Positions 1,998-14,968 of a DNA stretch of 36,063 nt are shown here, one piece after another (position 1 is the stretch's first letter; the number at the start of each line of letters is the position of its first letter). A program made the position numbers and the translations under genes. A model generated the notes under the pieces. That model saw nothing but the letters and a program-made list of their open reading frames with translations. It did not search any database and was not told the origin of the DNA. The DNA is from an uncultured OCS116 cluster bacterium (GTDB lineage Bacteria; Pseudomonadota; Alphaproteobacteria; Rhizobiales; TMED25), in the NCBI GenBank assembly GCA_902632055.1, contig CACPAS010000012.1:1-36063 (forward strand), read 5' to 3'.

Positions 1998-2765
1998 ATG
2001 ATTAATGAAACCAAAAATAAACTAGCAAATAATGAACTTACCCTTGGGGTTGGAATTGTACAGTCAAGAGTTGTTGAAGTTGTGCCATTAATGAAAACTG
2101 CAGGGTTTGACTGGCTTTTTCTTGATCTGGAGCATGGAGCATTGACTATTGATACGGTTTCGCAAATGTCTGCGATGGCACTAAAAACAGGTTTGACACC
2201 AATAGTAAGAATACCAATTAATGGATATACAATGGTCTCGAGGATACTTGATAACGGTGCGATGGGTATTGTATTACCACATGTTGAAACACCAGAAGAG
2301 GCTGCGAAATTAGTTGATACAGCAAAATTTCAGCCAGAAGGTTCACGTGGTGTTGGCGGGGGCATCGTTCACTATGATTATCGTAATGTTGATCTATCAG
2401 AGGCAACGAGACAGTTAAACTTTGAAACCTTACTCATTGCTATGGTTGAAACACCAGCTGCGATTGAGTCGATTGATGAAATAGCATCCGTCGATGGAAT
2501 TGACGTCATAATGATCGGTACAAATGATCTTGCAATGGCTAGTGGCTGTCCGCAGGACTTTGGTAATCCGAAAATACAAAAATTTTATGAAAAAACTGCA
2601 TTGGCTTGTAAAAAATATAATAAATGGCTTGGCTCTGGCGGCGTGAAAGATGAAAAAGCGGCAAAGAATTATATAGAAATGGGAGCTAATTTCTTTCTTG
2701 CTGGGCAGGATATTAGTTTCTTGCTATCTGCATCAAAAGATAGAGTTGACCGGCTCAGAAGCTAA
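1998..2765 (+). CDS. HpcH/HpaI-family aldolase (class II, pyruvate-type)
   Basis: A 255-residue TIM-barrel enzyme of the HpcH/HpaI aldolase/citrate lyase family. Members reversibly cleave 4-hydroxy-2-oxoacids to pyruvate and an aldehyde using a divalent metal. Visible landmarks are FLDLEHGA (the His of the usual EH pair), VRIP (the substrate Arg), the metal-ligand region AMVETPAAIESIDEIASVDG and then MIGTNDLAMASG, where relatives usually have GPxDLS. Length is normal for the family. It sits between two paralogous MFS genes with gaps of 12 and 4 bases, so all three are probably one transcript. The exact substrate is open: 2-keto-3-deoxy sugar acids and 4-hydroxy-2-oxovalerate or heptanedioate types are all possible. 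Confidence 0.88.
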   Translation: MINETKNKLANNELTLGVGIVQSRVVEVVPLMKTAGFDWLFLDLEHGALTIDTVSQMSAMALKTGLTPIVRIPINGYTMVSRILDNGAMGIVLPHVETPEEAAKLVDTAKFQPEGSRGVGGGIVHYDYRNVDLSEATRQLNFETLLIAMVETPAAIESIDEIASVDGIDVIMIGTNDLAMASGCPQDFGNPKIQKFYEKTALACKKYNKWLGSGGVKDEKAAKNYIEMGANFFLAGQDISFLLSASKDRVDRLRS

Positions 2766-2769
2766 AATA

Positions 2770-3999
2770 ATGGACATTGTAAAAAATATTTTAAAACCAC
2801 AAATGCCATCAATTCTTGTTGGTGCCGGTCATGGTGGCACGCATTGGGTTAATGCAGCAATATATATCCTATTACCATATATTATTTTAGATCTCGGTCT
2901 AAGCTATACACAGGCAGGTCTAATTATGACTGTATTCCACTTCTCTACTTTTTTTGCAAATGCAATAAGTGGGCCATTAGTGGATTTACGTGGAAATGAA
3001 AAATATACAAATTTCCAAGCATATTCACTCTTGATTGGCGGGTTTGCAATGGTGCTTATGAGTATGTCTACAACGATATATATGCTGTTCATCAGCGTCG
3101 CGATGATAGGAATTTGTATTAGTCTTTGGCATCCTGCAGCTATTACATATTTATCTGTAAATTATCCAGAAAATAGAGGTTTTGTTCTATCAATCCACAG
3201 TATTGGCGCAAGCTTGGGTGATGCGTTATCTCCACTACTTGCAGCATTTTTTCTTACATATGTGACAATTAATGGTAGTAATTTATCCTGGAATACGACT
3301 TCAATACTTTTATCCTTACCGCTTTTTATATTGGTGCTAATAATTATTTTCTTTTTGAAGGATAAAAAAAATAGTAATGACGAAATCATTGGCGAGAAAG
3401 ATAACAATTATTTTGCTGACTTAATACTTTTATTGAAAAATATTCAATTAATACCATTGTTTCTGGTGGCAGGGGTTAGGACTGTTACACAAAACGGTGT
3501 ACTTATATTTATGCCTTTATATCTGGTCGCGAATGTAGGCGCTAGTGCCGCAGTTATTGGGGCCTCTCTGTTCGCAATGCAAATGGGTGGCTTAATTTCA
3601 GGTCCTATCGCCGGATACTTATCTGATAAACATGGAAGAAAAATTATTGCAATCTCCTCTCTCCTAGTTTCTGGAGTTTTGGTATCATTTTATCCGCTAA
3701 TTAGCAGCAGTATATTTATTATATTACTATCAGCGTTAATTGGTTTTGCGATTTATGCTGGGCGACCAGTTGTACAAGGCTGGGCATTGGACATTGCTCC
3801 AGCTAAGACTTCCGGCAGTGTTATTAGTCTTTTATTCATGATGCAAGTTGGTTCAGCAGCACTTTTTGCAATGATTGCTGGTATTATTGCGGATAGATAT
3901 GGTTTGGCAATAATCTTTTTTATCTTGTCTGCGGTATGCATCACTACATTGGCAATTGCTTCTATAATACCATCATCAAAAACAATAAAAAGCAGCTAG
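2770..3999 (+). CDS. MFS transporter (second related copy)
   Basis: A 409-residue, 12-helix major facilitator protein. It is clearly related to the one at 783: both carry GHGxTHWVN in helix 1, HSxGASLGD in the middle, TQNG, and a late RPVVxxW...TSGSxIS segment. The loop 8-9 motif is LSDKHGRKI. The ATG at 2770, 4 bases after the aldolase stop, is chosen over the upstream in-frame start because it gives an N-terminus that lines up with the paralogue and avoids overlap. It ends 3 bases from the convergent gloA gene. Transport of a substrate or product of the neighbouring aldolase is inferred; the ligand is unknown. Confidence 0.88.
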   Translation: MDIVKNILKPQMPSILVGAGHGGTHWVNAAIYILLPYIILDLGLSYTQAGLIMTVFHFSTFFANAISGPLVDLRGNEKYTNFQAYSLLIGGFAMVLMSMSTTIYMLFISVAMIGICISLWHPAAITYLSVNYPENRGFVLSIHSIGASLGDALSPLLAAFFLTYVTINGSNLSWNTTSILLSLPLFILVLIIIFFLKDKKNSNDEIIGEKDNNYFADLILLLKNIQLIPLFLVAGVRTVTQNGVLIFMPLYLVANVGASAAVIGASLFAMQMGGLISGPIAGYLSDKHGRKIIAISSLLVSGVLVSFYPLISSSIFIILLSALIGFAIYAGRPVVQGWALDIAPAKTSGSVISLLFMMQVGSAALFAMIAGIIADRYGLAIIFFILSAVCITTLAIASIIPSSKTIKSS

Positions 4000-4002
4000 T
4001 AT

Positions 4003-4419
4003 TTATATTGTACGTGTATCTAAGTCTACGATTTCAATTTTATAGCCGTCCGGATCCTCGATAAAAGCGATATGGGTTGTGCCGTGTTTTACTGGACCCG
4101 GTTTTCGTGGTATGTTAACTCCTGCATTCTCAAGCTTGTCACAAATATCATATATTCCTCTCACTCCAAGGGCAATATGCCCATACGCTGTTCCAATTTC
4201 ATAGTCTTGGTCTTGATCCCAATTATATGTTAACTCTAAAACAGCATGCGTGTCTTCTGGTCCATAGCCAACGAAAACATTAGTGTATTTTGCCTCGGGG
4301 ACCTCCCTTTTTCTAAGTAGCGTCATCCCCAAAAATTTAGTATAAAAATCTATTGATTTATCTAAATCTCTTACTCTTAGCATCGTATGTAACATTTGGA
4401 ATTCTGTATTATTACCCAT
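4003..4419 (-). CDS. gloA: Lactoylglutathione lyase (glyoxalase I)
   Basis: Converts the hemithioacetal of methylglyoxal and glutathione to S-lactoylglutathione in the cytosol. The 138-residue product is nearly collinear with E. coli Glo[39 protein letters not shown] and EDPDGYKIE. The four metal ligands are present at His11, Glu62, His81 and Glu129. The ATG at 4419 is preferred over a TTG five codons upstream, because GGAGG lies 8 bases before it. It is transcribed away from the catabolic gene at 4524 and convergent to the MFS gene. Its place in an aldolase/oxidoreductase cluster suggests that the pathway makes a reactive 2-oxoaldehyde. Confidence 0.96.
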
Positions 4420-4523
4420 TTTTAGCGCCTCCAAAGAATAAAAAAATATTTTGATATCTTACTATTAATACATTAGCATTAAAATACTAATCATTTTTTG
4501 AATACAATAAAAGGGAAATAGTG
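4420..4523. promoter_or_regulatory. Divergent intergenic region with imperfect palindrome
   Basis: These 104 bases separate gloA (minus) from the dimeric-barrel gene (plus), so both promoters must lie here. At 4472-4491 there is a 20-base imperfect palindrome with outer arms ATTAG and CTAAT; 16 of the 20 positions match their complement. That is the layout of a dimeric regulator site. No regulator gene lies next to it, and no convincing -35/-10 pair can be assigned in the AT-rich sequence. Confidence 0.35.
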
Positions 4524-5258
4524 ATGGATAACGCAATATGGGCAATTTGGTATGATCTAGAGGATAGTAATGATCAAGAATACTTCGATTGGATGCACAA
4601 TGATTACCTTCCCTTTATTCAATCCAAAACTGGTTGTTTGTGGGCAGCTCACTATAAAGCTGGGGCAAATGAAGGAAGTGGAATGAAAGCCATAAGAGAT
4701 AATTTACCCAGAGCAATTGATGATATTGGGCAAGGATCCCAATATATACAGCTGATCGGAGCCGCATCCATTGCCACACTTACTGGAAATGAAAAGTTTG
4801 TAAATAATAGAGGTATTTCTCAACAAACCCAACTCAAAAAACGTAAAGGTATGCGCGAGTGTATATTTCAGGTTGTATCAAGAGTAGATGGCCCTGAAAC
4901 TAATACAAAAACACCAGGAACAACACCTGGTCCTGTGATACAAATGGGAAGTTTTCGAACAAAAACTATCGATGACGAGTTTGATGTATGTTCATGGTAT
5001 ACACAACACAGGCTTCCAGCGATTGCAAGGCTTTCGGGATGTATTGCAGCCAGGACGATGCTTTGCGCTGCGGGATGGGCCAAATTCTCAGTTTTGTATG
5101 AGTTCACATCTCTTGAAGATCGAAGAAAGAATTTTGAAGAAAAGCATGAAGCAATGGGGTTAACTGATGATAAATGGACGCACAAGATACATAATTATAC
5201 GGTTCATGCGCCAGGATCGCCATCAGTCGCTGAGAGATTGTGGCCTCCAATTTCATAA
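4524..5258 (+). CDS. Uncharacterised two-repeat protein, dimeric alpha/beta-barrel-like (EthD/DABB type)
   Basis: No named function is recognised. The 244-residue soluble protein appears to be an internal duplication. The N-half segment YFDWMHNDYLPFIQSKTGC (about residues 19-37) and the C-half segment WYTQHRLPAIARLSGC (about 157-172) share W, four residues, LP, one residue, I, then GC followed by alanines. That pattern is typical of small ferredoxin-like dimeric alpha/beta-barrel (EthD-like) domains. The ATG at 4524 follows AAGGGAA; a GTG one codon upstream is also possible. The GMC oxidoreductase gene follows 16 bases later and is likely co-transcribed, so a role as an accessory or small enzyme of that oxidation is plausible but inferred. 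Confidence 0.7.
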   Translation: MDNAIWAIWYDLEDSNDQEYFDWMHNDYLPFIQSKTGCLWAAHYKAGANEGSGMKAIRDNLPRAIDDIGQGSQYIQLIGAASIATLTGNEKFVNNRGISQQTQLKKRKGMRECIFQVVSRVDGPETNTKTPGTTPGPVIQMGSFRTKTIDDEFDVCSWYTQHRLPAIARLSGCIAARTMLCAAGWAKFSVLYEFTSLEDRRKNFEEKHEAMGLTDDKWTHKIHNYTVHAPGSPSVAERLWPPIS

Positions 5259-5274
5259 TTAGGAGTTTAGGTGT

Positions 5275-6978
5275 ATGTTTGATTATATAATTGTTGGGGG
5301 GGGATCAGCGGGTTCAGTCCTTGCCAACAGGCTAACCTCTAACTCAAAAAATAAAGTTTTATTATGTGAAGCTGGTCCTGACACTCCGCCAGGAAAGGTC
5401 CCGGAGCAAATTTTAGATACATATCCCGGTTATGCTTATCTTGACAAAAGATTTCATTGGACAGAGCTTAAAGTTAGTACTGAAGTTAAGTCTCATAATA
5501 TGAAGGATGAAGATCAAATTCCACTTAGGAAATACGAACAAGCAAGGGTACTTGGAGGTGGCTCGTCTATAAATGGCTTAGTCGCGAATAGAGGCGCACC
5601 AAACGATTACAGCATCTGGGAGGAAAGGGGAGCAAAAGGTTGGTCTTGGGATGACGTACTCCCATATTTCAAAAAAGTAGAAAAGGACTCAGATTTTCAG
5701 GGTCCATTTCATGGCAATGACGGAAATATCCCTGTCAGCCGAATTTTTCCCGATATTTGGAATGGTCATGCTAAAGCATCAGCATCTGCATTTGAGGAGG
5801 CAGGTTTCAAATACCTTGAAGATCAAAATGGAAAGTTTGAGGATGGCTATTTTCCTGTAACAGGCTCATTTATTTACGAGAGAAGAGTTTCAGCAGCAAT
5901 GGGCTATCTGACCCAAGGCATCCGAAATCGTAAAAACCTAAAAATAATGACTGACACATTTGTTAAAGAAATTCTTTTTGATGGAAAAAAATGTATTGGT
6001 GTAACGGTCAGAATTGAAGGAAAAGACAAGAAATTTTTTGCAAAAGAAATAATATTAAGTTCAGGCGCAATCCATTCTCCGGCCCATTTGATGAGGGCTG
6101 GAATAGGCCCTGCAATGCACCTCAAAGAAAAGGGCATAAATGTACTAAAGAATCTTGGCGGTGTTGGGCAAAGGTTAATGGATCACCCATCAATTAATAT
6201 TGCCTCATTTATAAAACCTGAGGCACGAATTAATCAATATTCAAGACGACATCTTCTTGTGGGGATGCGTTATTCATCGGGACTTAAGAATATTCCAAAA
6301 GGAGACATGTATGTCGCGGTATGTTCAAAGACAGCTTGGCATTCAATTGGTGATCAATTAGCCGCATTTATTCTATTTGTAAATAGAACTTACTCTGAGA
6401 CAGGGCAAGTAAGATTGAGCACCATAGATCCTTATGATGAGCCAATTGTTGAGTTTAATCTACTTTCCGACGAGAGAGATCTAAAGCGTCTAATAGAGGG
6501 CTTTCGGAAGATGGTTCTAATCCAACAAACTGAACCATTTCAGAGGATATCTAGAGAGGTCTTTGCTGCCGTCTATGGTGATAAGGTGAGGCAGGTTGGA
6601 AAAGTTAATCTACGGAATAAACTAATGACTATGATCTTCTCCAAAATGCTTGATGGACCGGATGCTTTGAGAAGGTATTTACTAAATAAATTTGTTATCG
6701 AAGCCCCTGAATTATCAATATTGATGTCAGAGGATGAAGTCCTCGCAGATTTTATTAAAAAATCAACTGTTGGTGTGTGGCATGCATCATGCACCTGCCG
6801 AATGGGCGCCAAAAATGATAAAATGGCCGTCACTGATAATGAAGGACGAGTACATGGAATCAGCGGTTTGAGGGTGGTTGACGCATCAATTTTTCCCATA
6901 GTACCCTGCGCAAACTTAAATTTCCCAACACTTATGACTGCGGAAAAAATTTCAGATAAGATACTAGCCTCAAATTAA
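5275..6978 (+). CDS. GMC-family FAD-dependent oxidoreductase (choline/alcohol dehydrogenase type)
   Basis: A 567-residue flavoprotein that oxidises an alcohol group. It opens with the FAD-binding beta-alpha-beta fold DYIIVGGGSAGS, followed by ARVLGGGSSINGL, the GMC signature 1 region, and SSGAIHSPAHLMRAGIG, signature 2. Near the C-terminus are VWHASCTCRMG with the catalytic His503 and PCANLNFPT with Asn547, 44 residues apart as in choline oxidase. AGGAG precedes the ATG. The substrate is unknown; sugar alcohols, choline-like and polyethylene-glycol-like alcohols are all used in this family. A run of eight G residues (5296-5303) encodes part of the GGG motif, which is unusual in such an AT-rich genome. 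Confidence 0.92.
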   Translation: MFDYIIVGGGSAGSVLANRLTSNSKNKVLLCEAGPDTPPGKVPEQILDTYPGYAYLDKRFHWTELKVSTEVKSHNMKDEDQIPLRKYEQARVLGGGSSINGLVANRGAPNDYSIWEERGAKGWSWDDVLPYFKKVEKDSDFQGPFHGNDGNIPVSRIFPDIWNGHAKASASAFEEAGFKYLEDQNGKFEDGYFPVTGSFIYERRVSAAMGYLTQGIRNRKNLKIMTDTFVKEILFDGKKCIGVTVRIEGKDKKFFAKEIILSSGAIHSPAHLMRAGIGPAMHLKEKGINVLKNLGGVGQRLMDHPSINIASFIKPEARINQYSRRHLLVGMRYSSGLKNIPKGDMYVAVCSKTAWHSIGDQLAAFILFVNRTYSETGQVRLSTIDPYDEPIVEFNLLSDERDLKRLIEGFRKMVLIQQTEPFQRISREVFAAVYGDKVRQVGKVNLRNKLMTMIFSKMLDGPDALRRYLLNKFVIEAPELSILMSEDEVLADFIKKSTVGVWHASCTCRMGAKNDKMAVTDNEGRVHGISGLRVVDASIFPIVPCANLNFPTLMTAEKISDKILASN

Positions 6979-6979
6979 T

Positions 6980-8110
6980 TTATGATAGTTTTTTAGAGAG
7001 CCATTCAAAAGATGCTGCAGCCCAATGATCTTGATACTTGAACGCGCAATGTCCAGCATCTGGGTAAATACGAGCCTCTCTTCCATGAGGCGGTCCGTTT
7101 TCCAGCATATAGTAGATATTTCCAATAGGTGCCAGATGATCCTTTTTACCATTAATTAGAAGCATTGGCTGATTTATCTTATCAAGTATACCGAGACTGC
7201 TTAATGACCACTTATCAAATAACATCTGCTCCTTTTCAACTGTCCAAGGTGGAAAAGATGGAGGGTCACCTATCTGTCCAAAGACATGCTGGGCTCTATC
7301 ATTCCGTGCTTTTACAAAATTTCTCATTTCTTCTTCTGTCATCTTGTAACCGAATGGATGCCCTGCATTTGCTACTATAGCTTTAACCATTTCAGGATAA
7401 GATCCTGCAAGTTGTACAACAGAATAGCCTCCTCTACTTATGCCAAAGGCACCTATCTTATTTTCATCAACTTCAGGTCTGCCTGCGAGGTAGTCGATAG
7501 CCGCCATCCAGGCTGACACTGACTCTGGTTCCCACGGAAATGGATTTTCTCCGGTGGCAGGCCCATCCATTACAAGCGATGCTAGATTATTATCAATGGC
7601 ATGTTGTGAGGCCCAACCTCTATCCTCCTTAAACATATCAGCTCCACACATGATGAGAACGGCTGCAATTCTATCTGCTCCTTTCGGGCATCTATAATGG
7701 CACGTTATTTCCTTATCACCACAACGGACTTTAACAATTTCAACTTCGGGCTCTAGTAGCTCGCATGCTTTCCTGTAAACCCTTGCGCATTCAGCGCTTA
7801 TTTTTTTCTTACTCTCGGTAATCTCGCCGGGATATCTTGCAATAGATAGGTAAGTTTTTGCTAGCATAAACTCATTATATGCTTCCTCATGTCTATTTTC
7901 CTTTATGAATCCGTCACCTTTTTTTTCATGTTTATTCGCAACTTCACTCCATATTGGAATCCAAGACTCTTCAGTCGTACTCTTGATCTTACTGACAGCG
8001 GTCACAAGTTCGTCTATGTCAGTCAACATAGGTATCCACCTCCTGTAGAAACCTCCATACTCAACAGCATACGGATTCTCTCCTGCGCTAAATTTAATTT
8101 GATCTCCCAT
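6980..8110 (-). CDS. Alpha/beta hydrolase with N-terminal cap (FrsA / DUF1100, DHPON-hydrolase-like)
   Basis: A 376-residue hydrolase. Residues 1-125 form a helical cap-like region. The alpha/beta hydrolase core follows, with the nucleophile elbow GISRGG (Ser225), the acid in GKKDHLAP (Asp324) and the catalytic histidine in AGHCAFKY (His364). This layout matches the FrsA/DUF1100 group, which includes the C-C bond hydrolase 2,6-dihydroxypseudooxynicotine hydrolase and related esterases. The gene ends 1 base after the convergent GMC gene and is divergent from the Gfo/Idh operon. It could hydrolyse an ester, lactone or beta-diketone intermediate of the local pathway. The ATG at 8110 follows AAAGGG, which sits inside a short palindrome. 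Confidence 0.82.
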   Translation of the reverse strand: MGDQIKFSAGENPYAVEYGGFYRRWIPMLTDIDELVTAVSKIKSTTEESWIPIWSEVANKHEKKGDGFIKENRHEEAYNEFMLAKTYLSIARYPGEITESKKKISAECARVYRKACELLEPEVEIVKVRCGDKEITCHYRCPKGADRIAAVLIMCGADMFKEDRGWASQHAIDNNLASLVMDGPATGENPFPWEPESVSAWMAAIDYLAGRPEVDENKIGAFGISRGGYSVVQLAGSYPEMVKAIVANAGHPFGYKMTEEEMRNFVKARNDRAQHVFGQIGDPPSFPPWTVEKEQMLFDKWSLSSLGILDKINQPMLLINGKKDHLAPIGNIYYMLENGPPHGREARIYPDAGHCAFKYQDHWAAASFEWLSKKLS

Positions 8111-8204
8111 TTACAAAGCCCTTTGTGTATATATAATTGAATATATATTTATTTAACAAAAAAATAAACTTACAAAATATACAGACACAGGGTATACATT
8201 TATT
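8111..8204. promoter_or_regulatory. Divergent intergenic region, hydrolase / Gfo-E1-lipoyl operon
   Basis: These 94 very AT-rich bases must carry the promoters for the hydrolase (minus) and the six-gene operon (plus). At 8113-8126 lies ACAAAGCCCTTTGT, two six-base arms around CC, directly over the likely ribosome binding site of the hydrolase. A TATATAATTGAATATATAT stretch follows at about 8129-8148. No regulator is encoded nearby and no specific promoter elements can be fixed. Confidence 0.35.
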
Positions 8205-9200
8205 ATGAAAGCAGCGGTAATTGGTCTAGGTTGGTGGGGTAAACAAATAATAAAGTGTCTCAGTGAGAGCAAAAAGATTGATATAACACACGCTTTTGAT
8301 CCTCAGGTTAGTAAAGATGACCCAATTTTTTCTGAGTTCTCTGTTGACCCGAATTTAGATTTTGATGCAATAATAAACAGTCTATCTGTTGATGCCGTGA
8401 TCCTAGCAACACCAAATCAGTTTCATGAAGAGCAAGTAATCTCTGCGGCGAACAAAGGAAAGCAGGTATTTTGTGAAAAACCAGTCGCCTTAAAATATGA
8501 TAGCATCAAGAGAATGGCCTCCGCTTGCAAGAAAAATGGTATTATTCTTGGTGTAGGCCATGAGAGACGATGGGAACCCGCCATGGTCAAGCTCAGAGCT
8601 ATGCTTGATGAAGGTATGCTTGGAGAAATCTTGCATATGGAGACAAATTTTAGTCACGACATCTTTATGAAACTAGATAAAGATAACTGGAGGTTGGACC
8701 CAGAATCTGCTCCAGCCGGTGGAATGACCGCACTGGGGATACATTTATCGGATTTTTTCGTGTCTTTCCTGGGTCCAGCAAAGACTGTTTATGCAAAAAC
8801 TGGCTCAATAGTCTTGGAGCATCCAAAAAAAGATACATTATCAGTGAATATACGGTTCCAAAATAATGTCACTGCGTCACTCGCTGTCATGATATCGACT
8901 CCATTTTATGGTCGGTTTACTGTATTTGGCGAAAAAGGTTGGGTAGAAATAAGGGAAGTATCAAATGTTGATTTTGACGATCCCGCTGAGTTTATCTATT
9001 GCGATAAACATGGCAAAAGAGTGATTGAAGAGCACCCGGTTGTAAATACTGTTAAATTGAATTTCGAAGAATGGGCGGATGCGGTTGCAGGTCATTCGAC
9101 ATATCGTATTAATATAGATGAAGTAGTATCAAATGTTCAAATATTAGAATCTATAATTAATTCTGCTGAAAAAAATCAAATTATTAAAATAATCGATTAA
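8205..9200 (+). CDS. Gfo/Idh/MocA-family NAD(P)-dependent oxidoreductase
   Basis: A 331-residue sugar- or polyol-type dehydrogenase. The N-terminal Rossmann domain has AAVIGLGWWG, VILATPNQFHEEQ and the family hallmark FCEKPVALK with catalytic Lys92. The C-terminal alpha/beta domain includes GGMTALGIHLSDFF, whose histidine fits the usual catalytic position. It is the first gene of a tight operon: the E1-alpha gene follows after 8 bases. Relatives oxidise or reduce inositols, sugars or sugar acids, so it supports a carbohydrate-like or polyol substrate for the pathway, but the specific compound cannot be told. The start at 8205 gives a normal N-terminus beginning directly with the first beta strand. 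Confidence 0.9.
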   Translation: MKAAVIGLGWWGKQIIKCLSESKKIDITHAFDPQVSKDDPIFSEFSVDPNLDFDAIINSLSVDAVILATPNQFHEEQVISAANKGKQVFCEKPVALKYDSIKRMASACKKNGIILGVGHERRWEPAMVKLRAMLDEGMLGEILHMETNFSHDIFMKLDKDNWRLDPESAPAGGMTALGIHLSDFFVSFLGPAKTVYAKTGSIVLEHPKKDTLSVNIRFQNNVTASLAVMISTPFYGRFTVFGEKGWVEIREVSNVDFDDPAEFIYCDKHGKRVIEEHPVVNTVKLNFEEWADAVAGHSTYRINIDEVVSNVQILESIINSAEKNQIIKIID

Positions 9201-9208
9201 TTGATGAA

Positions 9209-10210
9209 ATGATGTCCATCAAGAAATATGTAAATAATCTGTCCGATGAAGACCTAAAAAGACTATATAAAAAAATGCTCATGATCAGAAAATGTGAGGA
9301 GCATTTGGGAGAGGCCACAAAGAATGGAGCCTTTCCAGGCGCCGTTCATCTCTATATTGGGCAAGAAGCAATTGCCGTACCTTTATGTGATCAGTTGAAC
9401 GACTCTGATTGGATATCGAGTACACATAGAGGTCATGGACATTTCATTGCGAAAGGTGGCGATATTAAGAAAATGATGGCTGAGATTTATGGAAAATCGA
9501 CGGGGATATGTGGGGGTAAAGGTGGCTCTATGCATGTTGCTGATTTCAAGAAGGGAATAATTGGAGCAAATGGTGTTGTTGCAGGTGGTATGGGATTAGC
9601 CGTAGGTGCCGCCCTGGCGTCCAAAATGGATGGCAACGGAGCGGTTTCAATAATTTTTTTTGGGGATGGTGCAGCGAATCAAGGTGTTTTAATGGAAGCT
9701 ATGAATATATCCTCATTGTGGAACTTACCAATGATATTCATGTGTGAAAACAACCAATATTCTGAGTTTACTCACACCTCGGAGGTAACATCTGGAAAGA
9801 TTGTTGATAGGGCCAAACCTTTTGGCATTCCAAAATATGAAGTTGACGGAAATAACGCTGTTGATGTCTGGCAAGCAGCATATCAGGCAGTTCAAAGGGG
9901 GCGAAATGATGAGGGCCCATCATTTATTGAAGCGCATACATACAGGCAACGTGGGCATGTTGAATTTGAATATACATTTTTATCGCGGAACTACCGAGAT
10001 CAGAGCGAGGTTGAGTCATGGAAAACAAATGACAAAGACCCAATATTGAGGCTTGAGTTATACTTTATTGAAGATAATAAATTTTCTAGAGATGATATTG
10101 AAAAAATTCATAAGGAGGTTCAGGACGAAGTTAACGATGCAGTAAAATTTGCGATTGAAAGTCCAGAGCCAGATATTGCCAGCGCCATGGAGCATATGTT
10201 AGAGGAATAA
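9209..10210 (+). CDS. Thiamine-diphosphate dehydrogenase E1 component, alpha subunit (acetoin/pyruvate type)
   Basis: The E1-alpha subunit of an alpha2beta2 2-oxoacid or acetoin dehydrogenase; it decarboxylates or cleaves the substrate on thiamine diphosphate and passes the acyl group to lipoamide. Landmarks are GAVHLYIGQEA, STHRGHGH (His73, 76 and 78), GGKGGSMHVAD, and the ThDP/Mg motif GDGAANQG (about 162-169) ending in the asparagines near 191. At 333 residues it has the usual length. The HLYIGQEA and STHRGHGH stretches resemble acetoin dehydrogenase AcoA as much as PdhA. ATG codons at 9209 and 9212 are equally possible. It is followed by E1-beta after 3 bases. Confidence 0.93.
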   Translation: MMSIKKYVNNLSDEDLKRLYKKMLMIRKCEEHLGEATKNGAFPGAVHLYIGQEAIAVPLCDQLNDSDWISSTHRGHGHFIAKGGDIKKMMAEIYGKSTGICGGKGGSMHVADFKKGIIGANGVVAGGMGLAVGAALASKMDGNGAVSIIFFGDGAANQGVLMEAMNISSLWNLPMIFMCENNQYSEFTHTSEVTSGKIVDRAKPFGIPKYEVDGNNAVDVWQAAYQAVQRGRNDEGPSFIEAHTYRQRGHVEFEYTFLSRNYRDQSEVESWKTNDKDPILRLELYFIEDNKFSRDDIEKIHKEVQDEVNDAVKFAIESPEPDIASAMEHMLEE

Positions 10211-10213
10211 GTA

Positions 10214-11188
10214 ATGTCCAAGCAAAGAATGATGCCAGCAATAAATCTGGCATTACAAGAAGAAATGAAAAGGGATAATAAAGTTATCCTATACGGAGAG
10301 GATGCCGGTATTTCACTTTTGGGACAGACAACAGGTCTTCAAGATAATTTTGGTAGAGAGAGGGTTAGAGACACGCCAATCTGTGAGAATATTATGACAG
10401 GTATGGCTGTTGGTGCAGCAGCAGCTGGATACCGACCAATTTGCCATCTTTTATATGGAAACTTTATATATACAGGGTTTGACTCAATCGCCAACCAAGC
10501 AGCAAAATTAAAGTATATGACAGCCGGTCAAGTGAAATTACCTATAGTTTATATGGCAGTTATCGGCGGCGGGAGGTCTGCAGCTGCACAACACTCAGAT
10601 ATACCTTATCCTGCTTTGATGAATTTAGGAGGTGTAAAGATTGTTGTTCCATCAAATTCTAGAACAGCCAAAGGCTTATTGAAGTCTGCGATCAGGGATG
10701 ATAATCCAGTATTTTACCTAACAGCAGCGGGTGGTGGGCGACCAGAGGAAGTGCCAGATGATGATAACTATTTAATACCAATTGGGAAATCAGAGGTAAT
10801 AAACCAGGGAGATGACGTTACAATCATATCAATTGGTCCAATGACATTAAAAGCAGTGCAAGCAACAAAAAAACTTAATGAAAAAGGTATAGGAGTTGAC
10901 TTAATTGACCTTTTATCATTAGTGCCAATTGATGAGGACACAATCATAAGCTCATTAAAGAAAACAGGAAGAGTGATTATTGTTGATGAGGCTCGTGACA
11001 CATGTAGTGCTGCAAGTCATATATCGGCTATACTATCCGATAAGGCATTCAAATATCTAAAATCACCTATAAAAAGAGTTACTGTAAAAGATATCGCAAT
11101 CCCATACTCACCTATTTTAGAAAGCCACGTGATACCTGAGGTCGCCGATATTGTGAATTGTATTGAAAAGTTATTGGAGTCAAATTAG
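10214..11188 (+). CDS. Thiamine-diphosphate dehydrogenase E1 component, beta subunit
   Basis: A 324-residue partner of the preceding E1-alpha; together they form the ThDP active site at the subunit interface. Recognisable segments are MMPAINLALQEEM, LYGEDAGISLLGQT, the region RDTPICENIMTGMAVGAAAA around the conserved E, and GGGRSAAAQHSD, where the PdhB/AcoB family has its GxxxxxQHSQ loop. The C-terminal transketolase domain has VIIVDEARDTC and SPILESHVIP. Length is typical. The gene is 3 bases from both neighbours, which implies translational coupling and a stoichiometric complex with E1-alpha and the lipoyl protein. Confidence 0.93.
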   Translation: MSKQRMMPAINLALQEEMKRDNKVILYGEDAGISLLGQTTGLQDNFGRERVRDTPICENIMTGMAVGAAAAGYRPICHLLYGNFIYTGFDSIANQAAKLKYMTAGQVKLPIVYMAVIGGGRSAAAQHSDIPYPALMNLGGVKIVVPSNSRTAKGLLKSAIRDDNPVFYLTAAGGGRPEEVPDDDNYLIPIGKSEVINQGDDVTIISIGPMTLKAVQATKKLNEKGIGVDLIDLLSLVPIDEDTIISSLKKTGRVIIVDEARDTCSAASHISAILSDKAFKYLKSPIKRVTVKDIAIPYSPILESHVIPEVADIVNCIEKLLESN

Positions 11189-11191
11189 CCT

Positions 11192-11431
11192 ATGGAAAGA
11201 ATAGTTAAAATGCCAAGGATGGGCATGAATGTTGATGAGGGTACAATCGTTGAGTGGCATGTAAAAGAAGGTCAGAGTTTTTCAAAGGGCGATGCTTTAT
11301 ATTCCATCGAGACCGATAAGACAACTGCTGAGATAGAAGCACCGTGTGATGGTGTTTTAAATAAAATTCACGCCAATATTGGTGACGACATATCCGTTGG
11401 TGACCAGATATGCTCAATTAAAGAGACTTAA
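11192..11431 (+). CDS. Free-standing lipoyl-domain protein (acyl carrier of the E1 pair)
   Basis: A complete single biotinyl/lipoyl domain of 79 residues and nothing else. It shows the usual two-fold beta-sandwich pattern: VKMPRMGMNVDEGTIVEW, EGQSFSKGDALYSIETDK with modifiable Lys43 at the hairpin turn, APCDGVLNKI and GDDISVGDQICSI. The ETDKTT context is that of lipoyl domains rather than biotin domains (which have MKM). In pyruvate and acetoin dehydrogenases this domain is fused to a peripheral-subunit-binding domain and an acyltransferase (or hydrolase-like) domain. Here the frame stops immediately and a MATE gene follows. Its start 3 bases after E1-beta indicates that it carries the group released by this E1. 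Confidence 0.92.
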   Translation: MERIVKMPRMGMNVDEGTIVEWHVKEGQSFSKGDALYSIETDKTTAEIEAPCDGVLNKIHANIGDDISVGDQICSIKET

Positions 11432-11470
11432 TTATCAAAAATATTATTATTTATATCGATATATCCCAGC

Positions 11471-12856
11471 ATGCAATGTAGGCCAAAAAATACCTTTATG
11501 TTTCATTATTTGGATACCTTCCGCATGGGTTTTCCAATTATTATTGCAAGGACATCAATTTTGATTATGGTTACGGTTGATGCAATAATGACTGGCTGGG
11601 CCGGTCCAGATCAACTTGCATACCTTGGAATTGGACTGGCTCCAGTGATTGCTCTTATGGTTATTTTTATTGGCGCACTTAACGCGGTTGTCGTACTTGC
11701 ATCACAATCAATTGGAGCAAATGAAAGATATAAAGTTGGTACCATTTGGTACTCGGCAATGATCCATAGTATCTTATTTTCAATTATCTCTATCTTTATA
11801 TCCTTTTTCTTTGAAGATTTTTTTCTAATAACGGGGCAAGAGCTCAACATTGCAGAGGAAGGCGCAAGAGTTTCTCTAGTGTTCGCATATGGAATTCCTG
11901 GGATGTTATTTTTTGTAACAACAAACCTTATTTTAGAAGCAATGGGTTACCAAAAAGCTGGGATGTATGTCATGATTTTTGTCAATATACTAAACGTGGT
12001 CTTCAATGGTATCTTCTTACTATCATGGGGCTCATTTTTTAGTGGAGGTGGTGCTTATGAAGCAATCGTAATCTCATCAATATTGAGATGGACAGCATTT
12101 TTTCTGACCTTAATTTATCTTGCTTACATATCTAAGAAGAATGGTGATGTATTTAAGATGAAAAAAAGCCTTTTAGAAATTAGTGAGAACATGTTTACTC
12201 TAAAAGCAAGTATATCTAAGAAATTTAGAAAAATAGCGCTTCCAATGGCATTGTTGCAAGGCGTTGAAGTAATAGCTTTTGCAGCGGTTGTATTTATTGC
12301 AGGATGGTTCGGATCAGCTGCACTTGCTGCGCACCATGCAACTTACACCGTTGTGAATTTAATATACATGAGTGCGATTGGAGTTGCTGGTGCTACCTCT
12401 ATTAGGGTTGGTATTGCGGTTGGTCAGCAATCAGTTAGCGATACGAAAAGAGCAGGGCTAATGGGTATGCTAGTCGCTTTTTCAATCACGCTCCCAATAT
12501 CTGTTTTTACGCTCATAAATCCTGATGTGATTGCGCGAGTTTTCTTTGATAACCCAGAGATGATTATGATGACTCAGGAGATAATATTTTTTGTTGGATT
12601 TTTATTTATTTTTGACACTTTGATGGCAGTTTCATTGGGGGCATTGAGAGGTACTGGAGATGTATGGGGGCCATTTATTATATTATCTGTCTGTTTCTGG
12701 ATTTTTGGAATACCACTTTCATACGTCTTTGCTGTCACACTTGATTTTGGATTGATTGGATTATGGATTGGAATTGGTATTGGAATTATAAGTTCATTAT
12801 TGATTCTCGCACCAAGATTTTATATAATTTCGTCATCTCCAATTCAAAGATTATAA
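11471..12856 (+). CDS. MATE-family multidrug/metabolite efflux transporter
   Basis: A 461-residue polytopic membrane protein with about 12 hydrophobic segments and an internal twofold repeat. Features of the MATE family include MVTVDAIMTGWAGPDQLAYLGIG in the first helices, ASQSIGANE, and in the second half IAFAAVVFIAGWFGSAALAAHHAT and GVAGATSIRVGIAVGQ. MATE proteins export organic cations or metabolites against H+ or Na+. An in-frame ATG at 11498 (nine codons in) may be the true start, as neither site has a clear ribosome binding site. It is 39 bases behind the lipoyl gene and 11 ahead of the amidohydrolase, so it probably belongs to the operon. Confidence 0.88.
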   Translation: MQCRPKNTFMFHYLDTFRMGFPIIIARTSILIMVTVDAIMTGWAGPDQLAYLGIGLAPVIALMVIFIGALNAVVVLASQSIGANERYKVGTIWYSAMIHSILFSIISIFISFFFEDFFLITGQELNIAEEGARVSLVFAYGIPGMLFFVTTNLILEAMGYQKAGMYVMIFVNILNVVFNGIFLLSWGSFFSGGGAYEAIVISSILRWTAFFLTLIYLAYISKKNGDVFKMKKSLLEISENMFTLKASISKKFRKIALPMALLQGVEVIAFAAVVFIAGWFGSAALAAHHATYTVVNLIYMSAIGVAGATSIRVGIAVGQQSVSDTKRAGLMGMLVAFSITLPISVFTLINPDVIARVFFDNPEMIMMTQEIIFFVGFLFIFDTLMAVSLGALRGTGDVWGPFIILSVCFWIFGIPLSYVFAVTLDFGLIGLWIGIGIGIISSLLILAPRFYIISSSPIQRL

Positions 12857-12867
12857 GTTTGTCATTA

Positions 12868-13755
12868 ATGAGATTTCCAATAATAGATAGTCATCATCAC
12901 ATATGGAAGCAATCAGACTTAGAGTGGCTCCAAGGTGAAATACAGCCAAGAATATTTGGAGATTACACTTCGATTAAAAAGGACTATCTTATCGATGACT
13001 TTATTGAAGATGTAGTAGATTTTGGAGTGGAGCAGTCAGTTTATATCCAATGCAATTGGCCAATCGATAAATATCACGAAGAAGCAAAGTTTGTTGATGA
13101 CTCTTTCAATAATTCAGGGTGGCCGAACGCGTTTATTGGATATTGTAATTTACTAGATCCAAGTGCTCCCGAGATGCTGGATAAATTATTTGACTATCCC
13201 CTGACAAGGGGCATTAGAATGCAGCTTCATTGGCATGAACGTGAATTATATTCATTTGCATCTTCGCCAGATATTATGGAGGATCCAATATTTAATAATA
13301 ATTTTGAGTACTTGGCTAAAAAAGACTCAATTTTTGAATTACAAGTTTTTCAAAGTCAATTGAGTCATACAAAAAATCTTTTGGAAAGGTTTCCCGAAAC
13401 AACTTTTGTTCTTCAGCACGCCGGGATGCCGCATGACTTATCGAATAGTGGTTGGACTGAATGGAATACATTTATGGAAAGCCTTGCTGAATGTGAGAAT
13501 CTTTTCATTAAACTTTCAGGATTGGGAACATTTATTAATAAAAATGATCCTGAACTTATATCAAACATTGTTCAGAAAGTTTTAGCAAACTATCCATCAG
13601 ATAGGTGCTTGTTCGGATCGAATTTTCCGATTGAGAAAATCTGGTGTAGTTATGGTGATTTGATCAATGCGTTCCGAATGGCGACACGAAATATACCAAT
13701 TAATGATCAGAAAAATATTTTTCATAATACAGCAAGTAAAGTTTACGGGATTTAG
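12868..13755 (+). CDS. Amidohydrolase/lactonase, TIM-barrel (COG3618, Amidohydro_2)
   Basis: A 295-residue metal-dependent hydrolase of the COG3618 group, which includes L-fuconolactonase and galactarolactone-type lactonases. It opens with IIDSHHHIW (the HxH metal pair). It has QCNWP in the strand-2 region, TRGIRMQLHW, the strand-6 segment FVLQHAGMPHD, and the closing CLFGSNFPIEK, where COG3618 proteins have ASNFP. The ATG at 12868 starts directly at the first strand; the longer frame upstream would overlap the MATE gene by about 90 bases and is rejected. A lactonase would fit with the Gfo/Idh and GMC oxidoreductases of the block, which can produce lactones from cyclic sugars. It ends 1 base from a convergent MFS gene. 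Confidence 0.85.
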   Translation: MRFPIIDSHHHIWKQSDLEWLQGEIQPRIFGDYTSIKKDYLIDDFIEDVVDFGVEQSVYIQCNWPIDKYHEEAKFVDDSFNNSGWPNAFIGYCNLLDPSAPEMLDKLFDYPLTRGIRMQLHWHERELYSFASSPDIMEDPIFNNNFEYLAKKDSIFELQVFQSQLSHTKNLLERFPETTFVLQHAGMPHDLSNSGWTEWNTFMESLAECENLFIKLSGLGTFINKNDPELISNIVQKVLANYPSDRCLFGSNFPIEKIWCSYGDLINAFRMATRNIPINDQKNIFHNTASKVYGI

Positions 13756-13756
13756 A

Positions 13757-14968
13757 TCATCTTGCGCCGAATATAATGACAGGGCGATCCTTGATTGGGT
13801 AATGAAGTAAAGCTGCAAGCAACCCAAGTAAAACAGAAAACCACCACATAATATTATAATCACCGGTTAAGTCAAAAATCCATCCTCCCATCCAAGAACT
13901 TATGAACCCGCCTAATTGATGGCTAAAAAATACAATTCCATACAGCATCGACATATATTTAGGTCCAAAAAAGGTTGCAACAAGACCACTTGTCAATGGG
14001 ACGGTACCCAACCACAAGATACCGAGAACAAAGGTAAAAATTAATGTTGATATTACAGTGATCGGAGTAATTATATAGATTATAAATGCAATGGCTCTAA
14101 GAGAATACAAAGCTACAAGTACATCATTTTTTTTGTATTTATCACCTAAGCGCCCCGCTAATGCTACACCAAAGATATTAGCAAAGCCAATCAAAGCGAG
14201 TGAAGTTGTAGCCACATTACCCGGCAGTGACATATCTGAAATAAAAGCAGGCAGATGAGCAACAATGAAATTCACATGAAATCCACAAATGAAAAAACCA
14301 CAAACTAGCAAGAGGAAGTTTTTTGATTTCAATGCATGACTTAATACCTCACTCAATCTCTCATCGGTGTCATTAGTCTGGTTATTTTGATTAGTTATCT
14401 TATCATTTGGTGCCAGTCCATAAACTAGAGGTAACATAACCAAGGAAATTGCGGCAAGCCCAAATAGAGCCCCTGACCAACCAAATGATTCTATGAAAGT
14501 GCCTGTGACCGGAACACCCAAGAACATCCCTATTGAACCACCCATCGTCGTCAAACCTAGGGCGGTACCTCTTTTTTCAGGTGGTGCAAATTTTCCAACA
14601 GCACCAAGAATTACTGTAAACCCCAATCCGGATAGCCCAGATCCCACAATTATTCCACCAAGCAGTAATTCCTGAGGAGTGGCTGAGTTTGACAAAATCA
14701 GAATACCACACGAATAAAATAATGCACCCACTATAGCAACTTTTTTTAAACCAAATTTATCAGCTAACGCCCCCGTAAATGGTGCTAGGGCTCCCCAAAG
14801 AAGATTCACAAGTCCAATTGAAAGAGCAAATGTCTCTCTTCCGATCTGCAGTGTTGTACTAATTGGCTCCAGAAAAAGCCCAAATGATTGCCTGATACCA
14901 ACTGCAATAGCAAGAATTAGGCCGCCGCATATAATTTTAAGCTGTAAAGACGTTAATCCCTTAGTCAT
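13757..14968 (-). CDS. MFS transporter (oxalate/formate antiporter or monocarboxylate-like)
   Basis: A 403-residue, 12-helix major facilitator protein, distinct from the two at 783 and 2770. Its first helices read GIRQSFGLFLEPI and SIGLVNLLWGALAPFTGALADKFG, a pattern common in oxalate/formate-type and monocarboxylate-type MFS carriers. A hydrophilic central loop NQNNQTNDTDER separates the two halves, and a second GRLGDKYKK motif lies after helix 8. The start ATG lies inside the end of the metallophosphoesterase gene (8 bases shared), so it is translated from the same minus-strand transcript. Uptake of an organic anion is the best guess, without residue-level proof. Confidence 0.85.
   Translation of the reverse strand: MTKGLTSLQLKIICGGLILAIAVGIRQSFGLFLEPISTTLQIGRETFALSIGLVNLLWGALAPFTGALADKFGLKKVAIVGALFYSCGILILSNSATPQELLLGGIIVGSGLSGLGFTVILGAVGKFAPPEKRGTALGLTTMGGSIGMFLGVPVTGTFIESFGWSGALFGLAAISLVMLPLVYGLAPNDKITNQNNQTNDTDERLSEVLSHALKSKNFLLLVCGFFICGFHVNFIVAHLPAFISDMSLPGNVATTSLALIGFANIFGVALAGRLGDKYKKNDVLVALYSLRAIAFIIYIITPITVISTLIFTFVLGILWLGTVPLTSGLVATFFGPKYMSMLYGIVFFSHQLGGFISSWMGGWIFDLTGDYNIMWWFSVLLGLLAALLHYPIKDRPVIIFGAR

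Follow-up and report, generated by a model that had tools for sequence, protein, structure and literature searches.

Closest described systems

Five characterised lipoate-dependent complexes were listed in 2018 (PMC6067878). Acetoin dehydrogenase (AcoA/AcoB/AcoC with a shared E3) resembles the locus analysed here in that an E1-alpha/E1-beta pair is followed by a lipoyl-bearing gene. However, the lipoyl domain of AcoC is fused either to a catalytic acyltransferase (CAT) domain or to an alpha/beta hydrolase, whereas in the triplet described below the carrier stands alone, without an acyltransferase part, and the E1-beta belongs to a separate clade. With the pyruvate and branched-chain 2-oxoacid dehydrogenases the triplet shares the catalytic residues of E1 and the lipoyl fold, but it has no E2 core, no subunit-binding domain (PSBD), an altered E1-alpha loop and a carrier signature of its own. 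The glycine cleavage H protein and LbpA of the Hdr-like sulfur pathway (PMC6067878) are, like the triplet carrier, free-standing lipoyl proteins that act between enzymes; they have GcvH-like sequences, whereas the triplet carrier shows no GcvH match and has a thiamine E1 as partner. No description of an E1-alpha/E1-beta/lone-lipoyl module was found in the open-access literature, which is weak evidence of novelty. Because the E2 features tested for were not found, the module is classed as a variant of the E1-alpha/beta dehydrogenases rather than placed with the acetoin or pyruvate dehydrogenases.

The triplet and its conservation

The window, that is, the whole stretch of 36,063 nt that was analysed, contains the triplet in the following setting:

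5275..6978, + strand: GMC oxidoreductase, a neighbour kept in the window's family
6980..8110, - strand: FrsA-like alpha/beta hydrolase, kept in the window's family
8205..9200, + strand: Gfo/Idh/MocA NAD(P)-dependent dehydrogenase, 8 nt 5' of E1-alpha, its upstream place kept in the window's family
9209..10210, + strand: E1-alpha (TPP-dependent 2-oxoacid/acetoin-type dehydrogenase E1), PF00676, TPP motif GDGAANQ
10214..11188, + strand: E1-beta, PF02779 and PF02780, stop codon at 11186-11188
11192..11431, + strand: stand-alone lipoyl carrier protein of 79 aa, PF00364, ATG at 11192, stop codon ending at 11431
11318..11320, + strand: codon of Lys43, predicted lipoylation site, in the motif IETDKTTAE
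11471..12856, + strand: MATE transporter, 39 nt 3' of the lipoyl gene, marking the end of the triplet

Coordinates and Pfam matches agree with the earlier note, which had described an E1-alpha/E1-beta pair followed after 3 bases by a complete 79-residue lipoyl protein with Lys43 in ETDK. The gap between the E1-beta stop codon and the lipoyl ATG is exactly 3 nt, and E1-alpha and E1-beta are likewise 3 bases apart. The note's statement that the window lacks an acyltransferase, a subunit-binding domain and an E3 also holds, as no E2 or E3 gene is encoded in the 36,063 nt and the lipoyl ORF matches neither CAT nor PSBD. The Gfo/Idh/MocA gene and the triplet are likely one operon; this dehydrogenase is a candidate source of the E1 substrate and suggests an oxidised polyol or sugar derivative. 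The surrounding conserved cluster (1998-14968) has a catabolic appearance, with an HpcH/HpaI aldolase, a VOC protein, the GMC oxidase, the FrsA-like hydrolase, a fuconolactonase-like amidohydrolase and MFS transporters; no recognisable pathway was found in it, and the protein at 4521-5258 matches no model in Pfam or NCBIfam.

A frameshift concealing the rest of an E2 after 11431, or a normal E2 directly downstream in relatives, had been named as findings that would overturn this picture, and neither was encountered. The closest named relatives of the window's genome are marine "Rhodobiaceae" of the OCS116 cluster / TMED25, and the synteny of the triplet is kept in at least 10 OCS116/TMED25-type genomes. 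The lipoyl gene is intact at 62-99% identity in six relatives, five from the window's own genus and one from a second, and in these six synteny is complete from the MFS/HpcH/GMC genes through the MATE gene and beyond; further named assemblies agree. The same MATE gene always lies 3' of the lipoyl gene in the window's family, and no E2 remnant lies between the two. Among closer relatives the lipoyl gene evolves with a dN/dS of about 0.03-0.06, similar to that of E1-beta, and these comparisons support the view that the triplet is evolutionarily stable and strongly constrained. An assembly frameshift or a decayed E2 fragment is thus a practically negligible explanation: the gene is intact and constrained in all relatives and in independent assemblies, there is no CAT remnant, and synteny rules out a hidden E2 downstream.

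An E2-type lipoyl domain with its own signature

PF00364 spans residues 5-76 of the 79-aa carrier with 71.6 bits (cut-off 22.1), and in Pfam the protein matches this and related single-domain models only, with no match to CAT (PF00198), PSBD or GcvH. Its best NCBIfam match is NF011457, the model of acetoin dehydrogenase E2, and covers the N-terminal 79 of the model's 372 residues. The AlphaFold2 model, obtained with an alignment of 27 homologues, is a confident lipoyl barrel (pLDDT 90.9) that places Lys43 in the beta-turn between strands 35-40 and 45-49, and its nearest PDB matches are E2 lipoyl domains. The carrier therefore displays one E2-type trait, a lipoyl domain with the lysine in a beta-turn, and lacks another, the CAT domain. 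The H-protein-like shuttle once offered as an example of a new use of the carrier gains no sequence support, given an E2-type domain without a GcvH-family match in Pfam or NCBIfam. A biotin carrier would be conceivable in so far as the Pfam family also covers biotinyl domains, but it is highly improbable, since the lysine lies in E[T/S][D/E]K and not in the AMKM biotinylation motif of BCCP, the gene is linked to an E1, and the genome has a normal, separate BCCP.

Across lone carriers Lys43 is invariant (79/79), within the motif E[T/S][D/E]K, and a distinct signature accompanies it: F30 (79/79, against 5/64 fused or other domains), Y37 (79/79), C74 (77/79, against 0/64) and N13 (73/79), the last not being among the leading residues of the 64 fused or other domains. 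Cys74 replaces Ala or Gly of the fused domains and probably serves core packing, for which reason no redox role is claimed for it. In public annotation this carrier type appears as "lipoyl domain-containing protein" (WP_007682525.1).

The E1 clade

In an 87-row tree, the window E1-beta falls within one long-stemmed clade of 57 rows (SH-aLRT 100), of which 55 have a lone carrier and two have none; the deep branching order is unsure because this was a quick tree in which several long branches were flagged. Lone carriers outside the clade have separate origins. In f82, a group of streamlined alphaproteobacteria, the E1-beta is sister to that of the window family's own third, fused complex (L221), whose E1 is the closest relative of the lone-lipoyl E1 of f82, and the E1-beta of genome G072 is placed inside the AcoC type.

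The catalytic residues checked are retained throughout the clade: the GDG TPP motif and the lipoyl-acylation loop His of E1-alpha in 78/78 members, and the E1-beta His corresponding to H128 of the human and B. stearothermophilus enzymes in 81/81. The lipoyl-facing loop of E1-alpha, in contrast, carries Glu in 78/78 members versus Asp in 23/23 other E1s (HSMSDP in human PDH) and has gained residues, reading RGHVExExxF in the clade and RGHVEFEYTF in the window. The change from Asp to Glu marks the clade as a variant, although Asp is not a textbook defining feature, and the altered loop might mean a different chemistry. Both E1-alpha and the carrier thus bear subfamily marks that match, as expected if the association is long-standing. 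A further candidate mark, Tyr89 to His in E1-alpha, was rejected as not diagnostic.

Distribution and neighbours

The earlier note had pointed to other genomes as a place to look for the triplet, and it proved to be widespread. Loci were chosen by E1-beta alignment across 84,980 species genomes, without reference to the lipoyl gene, and 80 were kept; a lone lipoyl protein directly follows E1-beta in 78 of them, a figure that describes the clade and not all E1s, given that these loci are by design the nearest E1-beta relatives. The gap is mostly -4 to +10 nt, and the lone proteins measure 78-89 aa (median 80). The two exceptions are L133 (Hyphomicrobium zavarzinii) and L160, in which an IS6-family transposase gene (L160:6867) interrupts the E1-beta of Sphingobium ummariense. 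Hosts belong to the Alpha-, Beta- and Gammaproteobacteria, to Pseudonocardia and other Actinomycetota, and to Acidobacteriota MAGs; taxon labels of MAGs may be wrong, as for Planktophila in L186, which is nearly identical to a proteobacterial MAG, and genes in high-GC sequence were called by a simple script. Nearly all loci lack both E2 and E3 over a distance of about 6 kb: a CAT domain occurs in the flanks of only two of the 80, and no E3 was found in the fetched flanks of any. Apparent E3 matches near five Burkholderiales triplets were rejected as FAD monooxygenases.

The genes around the triplet change from lineage to lineage. SDR proteins occur at 29 and VOC proteins at 20 of 69 loci outside the window's family, and no neighbour or pathway common to all triplets was found across the loci. 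With neighbours so variable no shared pathway can be named, and the substrate therefore probably differs between loci; upstream NAD(P)-dependent dehydrogenases suggest ketone- or 2-oxoacid-type substrates.

E2, E3 and lipoylation in the host and in other lineages

A genome search of the kind proposed in the earlier note found a PDH E2 and E3 genes. The window genome (1.03 Mb, 77% complete) has three E2 genes, which belong to OGDH, PDH and a third complex and all encode an N-terminal lipoyl domain, as well as at least two E3 genes adjoining E2s, and lipA is present in all tested genomes of the window's family; given the lipA and E3 genes, the carrier can be lipoylated and an E3 is available. 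The third complete complex of the family, with a fused E2 (L221:1079-8555), has as neighbours a TPP enzyme as well as proteins of the M24 and cyclase types. In seven family genomes all E2s detected are full length and carry a lipoyl domain of their own; a lipoyl-less E2 core was found neither in the window's genome nor in the six relatives, which are 90-99% complete, nor in G228 and G328, single-contig triplet-bearing genomes of other lineages. A dedicated acceptor is therefore not evident, and use of a resident E2 is assumed.

Such CAT-only cores are seen, however, in three other triplet-bearing lineages. In L178/L186 a 272-aa CAT-only E2, without lipoyl domain or PSBD, lies immediately 5' of the E1-alpha, E1-beta and lipoyl genes, and in Novosphingobium ERN07 a 263-aa CAT-only E2 is found elsewhere in the genome; the split-E2 trait of a CAT-only core in the same genome was recorded in L178/L186, G072 and G580, and not in the window's family. 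In G072 (L046:5385-8573), inside the AcoC-type clade, E1-alpha, E1-beta, a 98-aa lipoyl protein and a CAT-only E2 are separate genes, apparently a recently split E2; this is a draft MAG, in which a frameshift between lipoyl and CAT is possible. A further apparent CAT-only E2, in G581, was rejected as a SucB cut by the contig end. Pseudonocardia dioxanivorans has lipoyl-bearing E2s and one CAT in a 1294-aa frame, which we take to be the actinobacterial KGD fusion. In some relatives (L026:2469-3488, L024:474-1460, L020:2360-3790) the protein after the E1 pair combines one or two lipoyl domains with a PSBD-like stretch, and its approximately 170 C-terminal residues have no Pfam match and are possibly a degenerate or unrecognised acyltransferase.

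How the free carrier may work

We favour, at a probability of about 0.62, a dissociated, E2-less E1-alpha/E1-beta dehydrogenase in which E1 acylates a free carrier that is probably unloaded to an E2 core in trans and served by a shared E3. Using thiamine diphosphate, the E1 heterotetramer would decarboxylate or cleave a substrate of the 2-oxoacid or acyloin type and then reductively acylate the lipoyl-lysine of the carrier encoded 3 bases 3'; judged from sequence, both lipoylation of the carrier and its acylation by this E1 are predicted, and it is reasonable to regard a free carrier serving E1 as chemically plausible. The acyl-carrier would diffuse and be unloaded in trans, most likely by the core of an E2 from another locus that transfers the acyl group to CoA; in the window organism this E2 would be one of the three resident ones and in some relatives a dedicated CAT-only E2. 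The dihydrolipoyl carrier would be reoxidised by the shared E3. The identity of the acceptor as an E2 core is more tentative, at somewhat less than even odds. Counted in favour of the dissociated dehydrogenase are the spacing of the triplet, its recurrence at nearly all loci, the E1-beta clade, the invariant His and Lys residues, purifying selection, the CAT-only cores, lipA and the fold match; counted against it are the lack of a lipoyl-less E2 in the family, the lack of a nearby E2 or E3, the variable neighbours and the altered E1-alpha loop. Of the split dehydrogenase put forward in the earlier note, then, the stable and constrained free carrier stands, while the matching lipoyl-less E2 core was found neither in the 77%-complete genome nor in its six relatives.

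The same E1 and free carrier could also operate without a CAT-type E2, the acyl group being released by a non-CAT enzyme, such as an alpha/beta hydrolase in the role of an acyltransferase or thioesterase, or by hydrolysis followed by reactivation of the acid by an acyl-CoA ligase. This is a fairly unlikely alternative. The carrier's closest NCBIfam model is the acetoin E2 NF011457, the AcoC-type protein of L018 joins a lipoyl domain to an Abhydrolase, the conserved FrsA-like hydrolase near the window triplet is a possible acyl acceptor or hydrolase, and in one subclade (L121/L122/L125/L156) Abhydrolase_3 directly follows the lipoyl gene; moreover, six loci and two Sphingobium plasmids have an AMP-binding acyl-CoA ligase gene that overlaps E1-alpha or lies directly next to it, with the overlap seen on pMI2 and pSRL1 and the direct adjacency in Burkholderiales. 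Yet no single hydrolase or ligase goes with most triplets, and some have CAT-only E2s. Also fairly unlikely is a further type of lipoate-dependent system, a thiamine E1 with a dedicated free carrier and without any dihydrolipoyl acyltransferase, in which non-CAT enzymes differing by pathway release the acyl group and E1 plus carrier form a mobile plug-in for C-C cleavage in many catabolic clusters. It is very unlikely that the carrier takes electrons only, with E1 oxidising an aldehyde-level intermediate, E3 making NADH and the product leaving E1 as free acid; the missing local acyltransferase and the variant E1-alpha loop would fit, but all checked residues for reductive acylation are invariant and E3 is never linked.

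For the favoured dissociated dehydrogenase, a conserved multi-phylum family with a free arm and no linked E2 would show that the system can do without substrate channelling by an E2 core. Many entries annotated only by their lipoyl domain would also receive a correct name, and attention would be drawn to candidate C-C cleavage steps in marine catabolism and in the breakdown of xenobiotics, among them clusters on linX-carrying Sphingobium plasmids.

Further occurrences on plasmids and in an inositol operon

On Sphingobium plasmid pTK4 (L223:7651-8870), IS6100 lies directly 5' of E1-beta, with no ligase or E1-alpha annotated there. Two Sphingobium plasmids (L224:7397-11220 and L225:7397-11220) carry an overlapping operon of acyl-CoA ligase, E1-alpha, E1-beta and lipoyl genes that is situated near IS6100, with linX about 8 kb away.

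A second, independent lone-lipoyl triplet lies inside a nearly complete myo-inositol operon (L083:254-12997; L101:10477-18501, in G228; L081; L082). The idea that the triplet replaces IolD was rejected: this triplet is of a different E1 lineage, iolD lies outside the operon in two of three f82 genomes (none turned up in the third, G455, which is 94% complete), and the window's family has no iolB. The operon comprises an ABC transporter, IolG- and IolE-like proteins, an SDR, an M24 protein, E1-alpha, E1-beta, the lipoyl protein, an ALDH, a Gfo/Idh protein, IolC, IolB and an aldolase.
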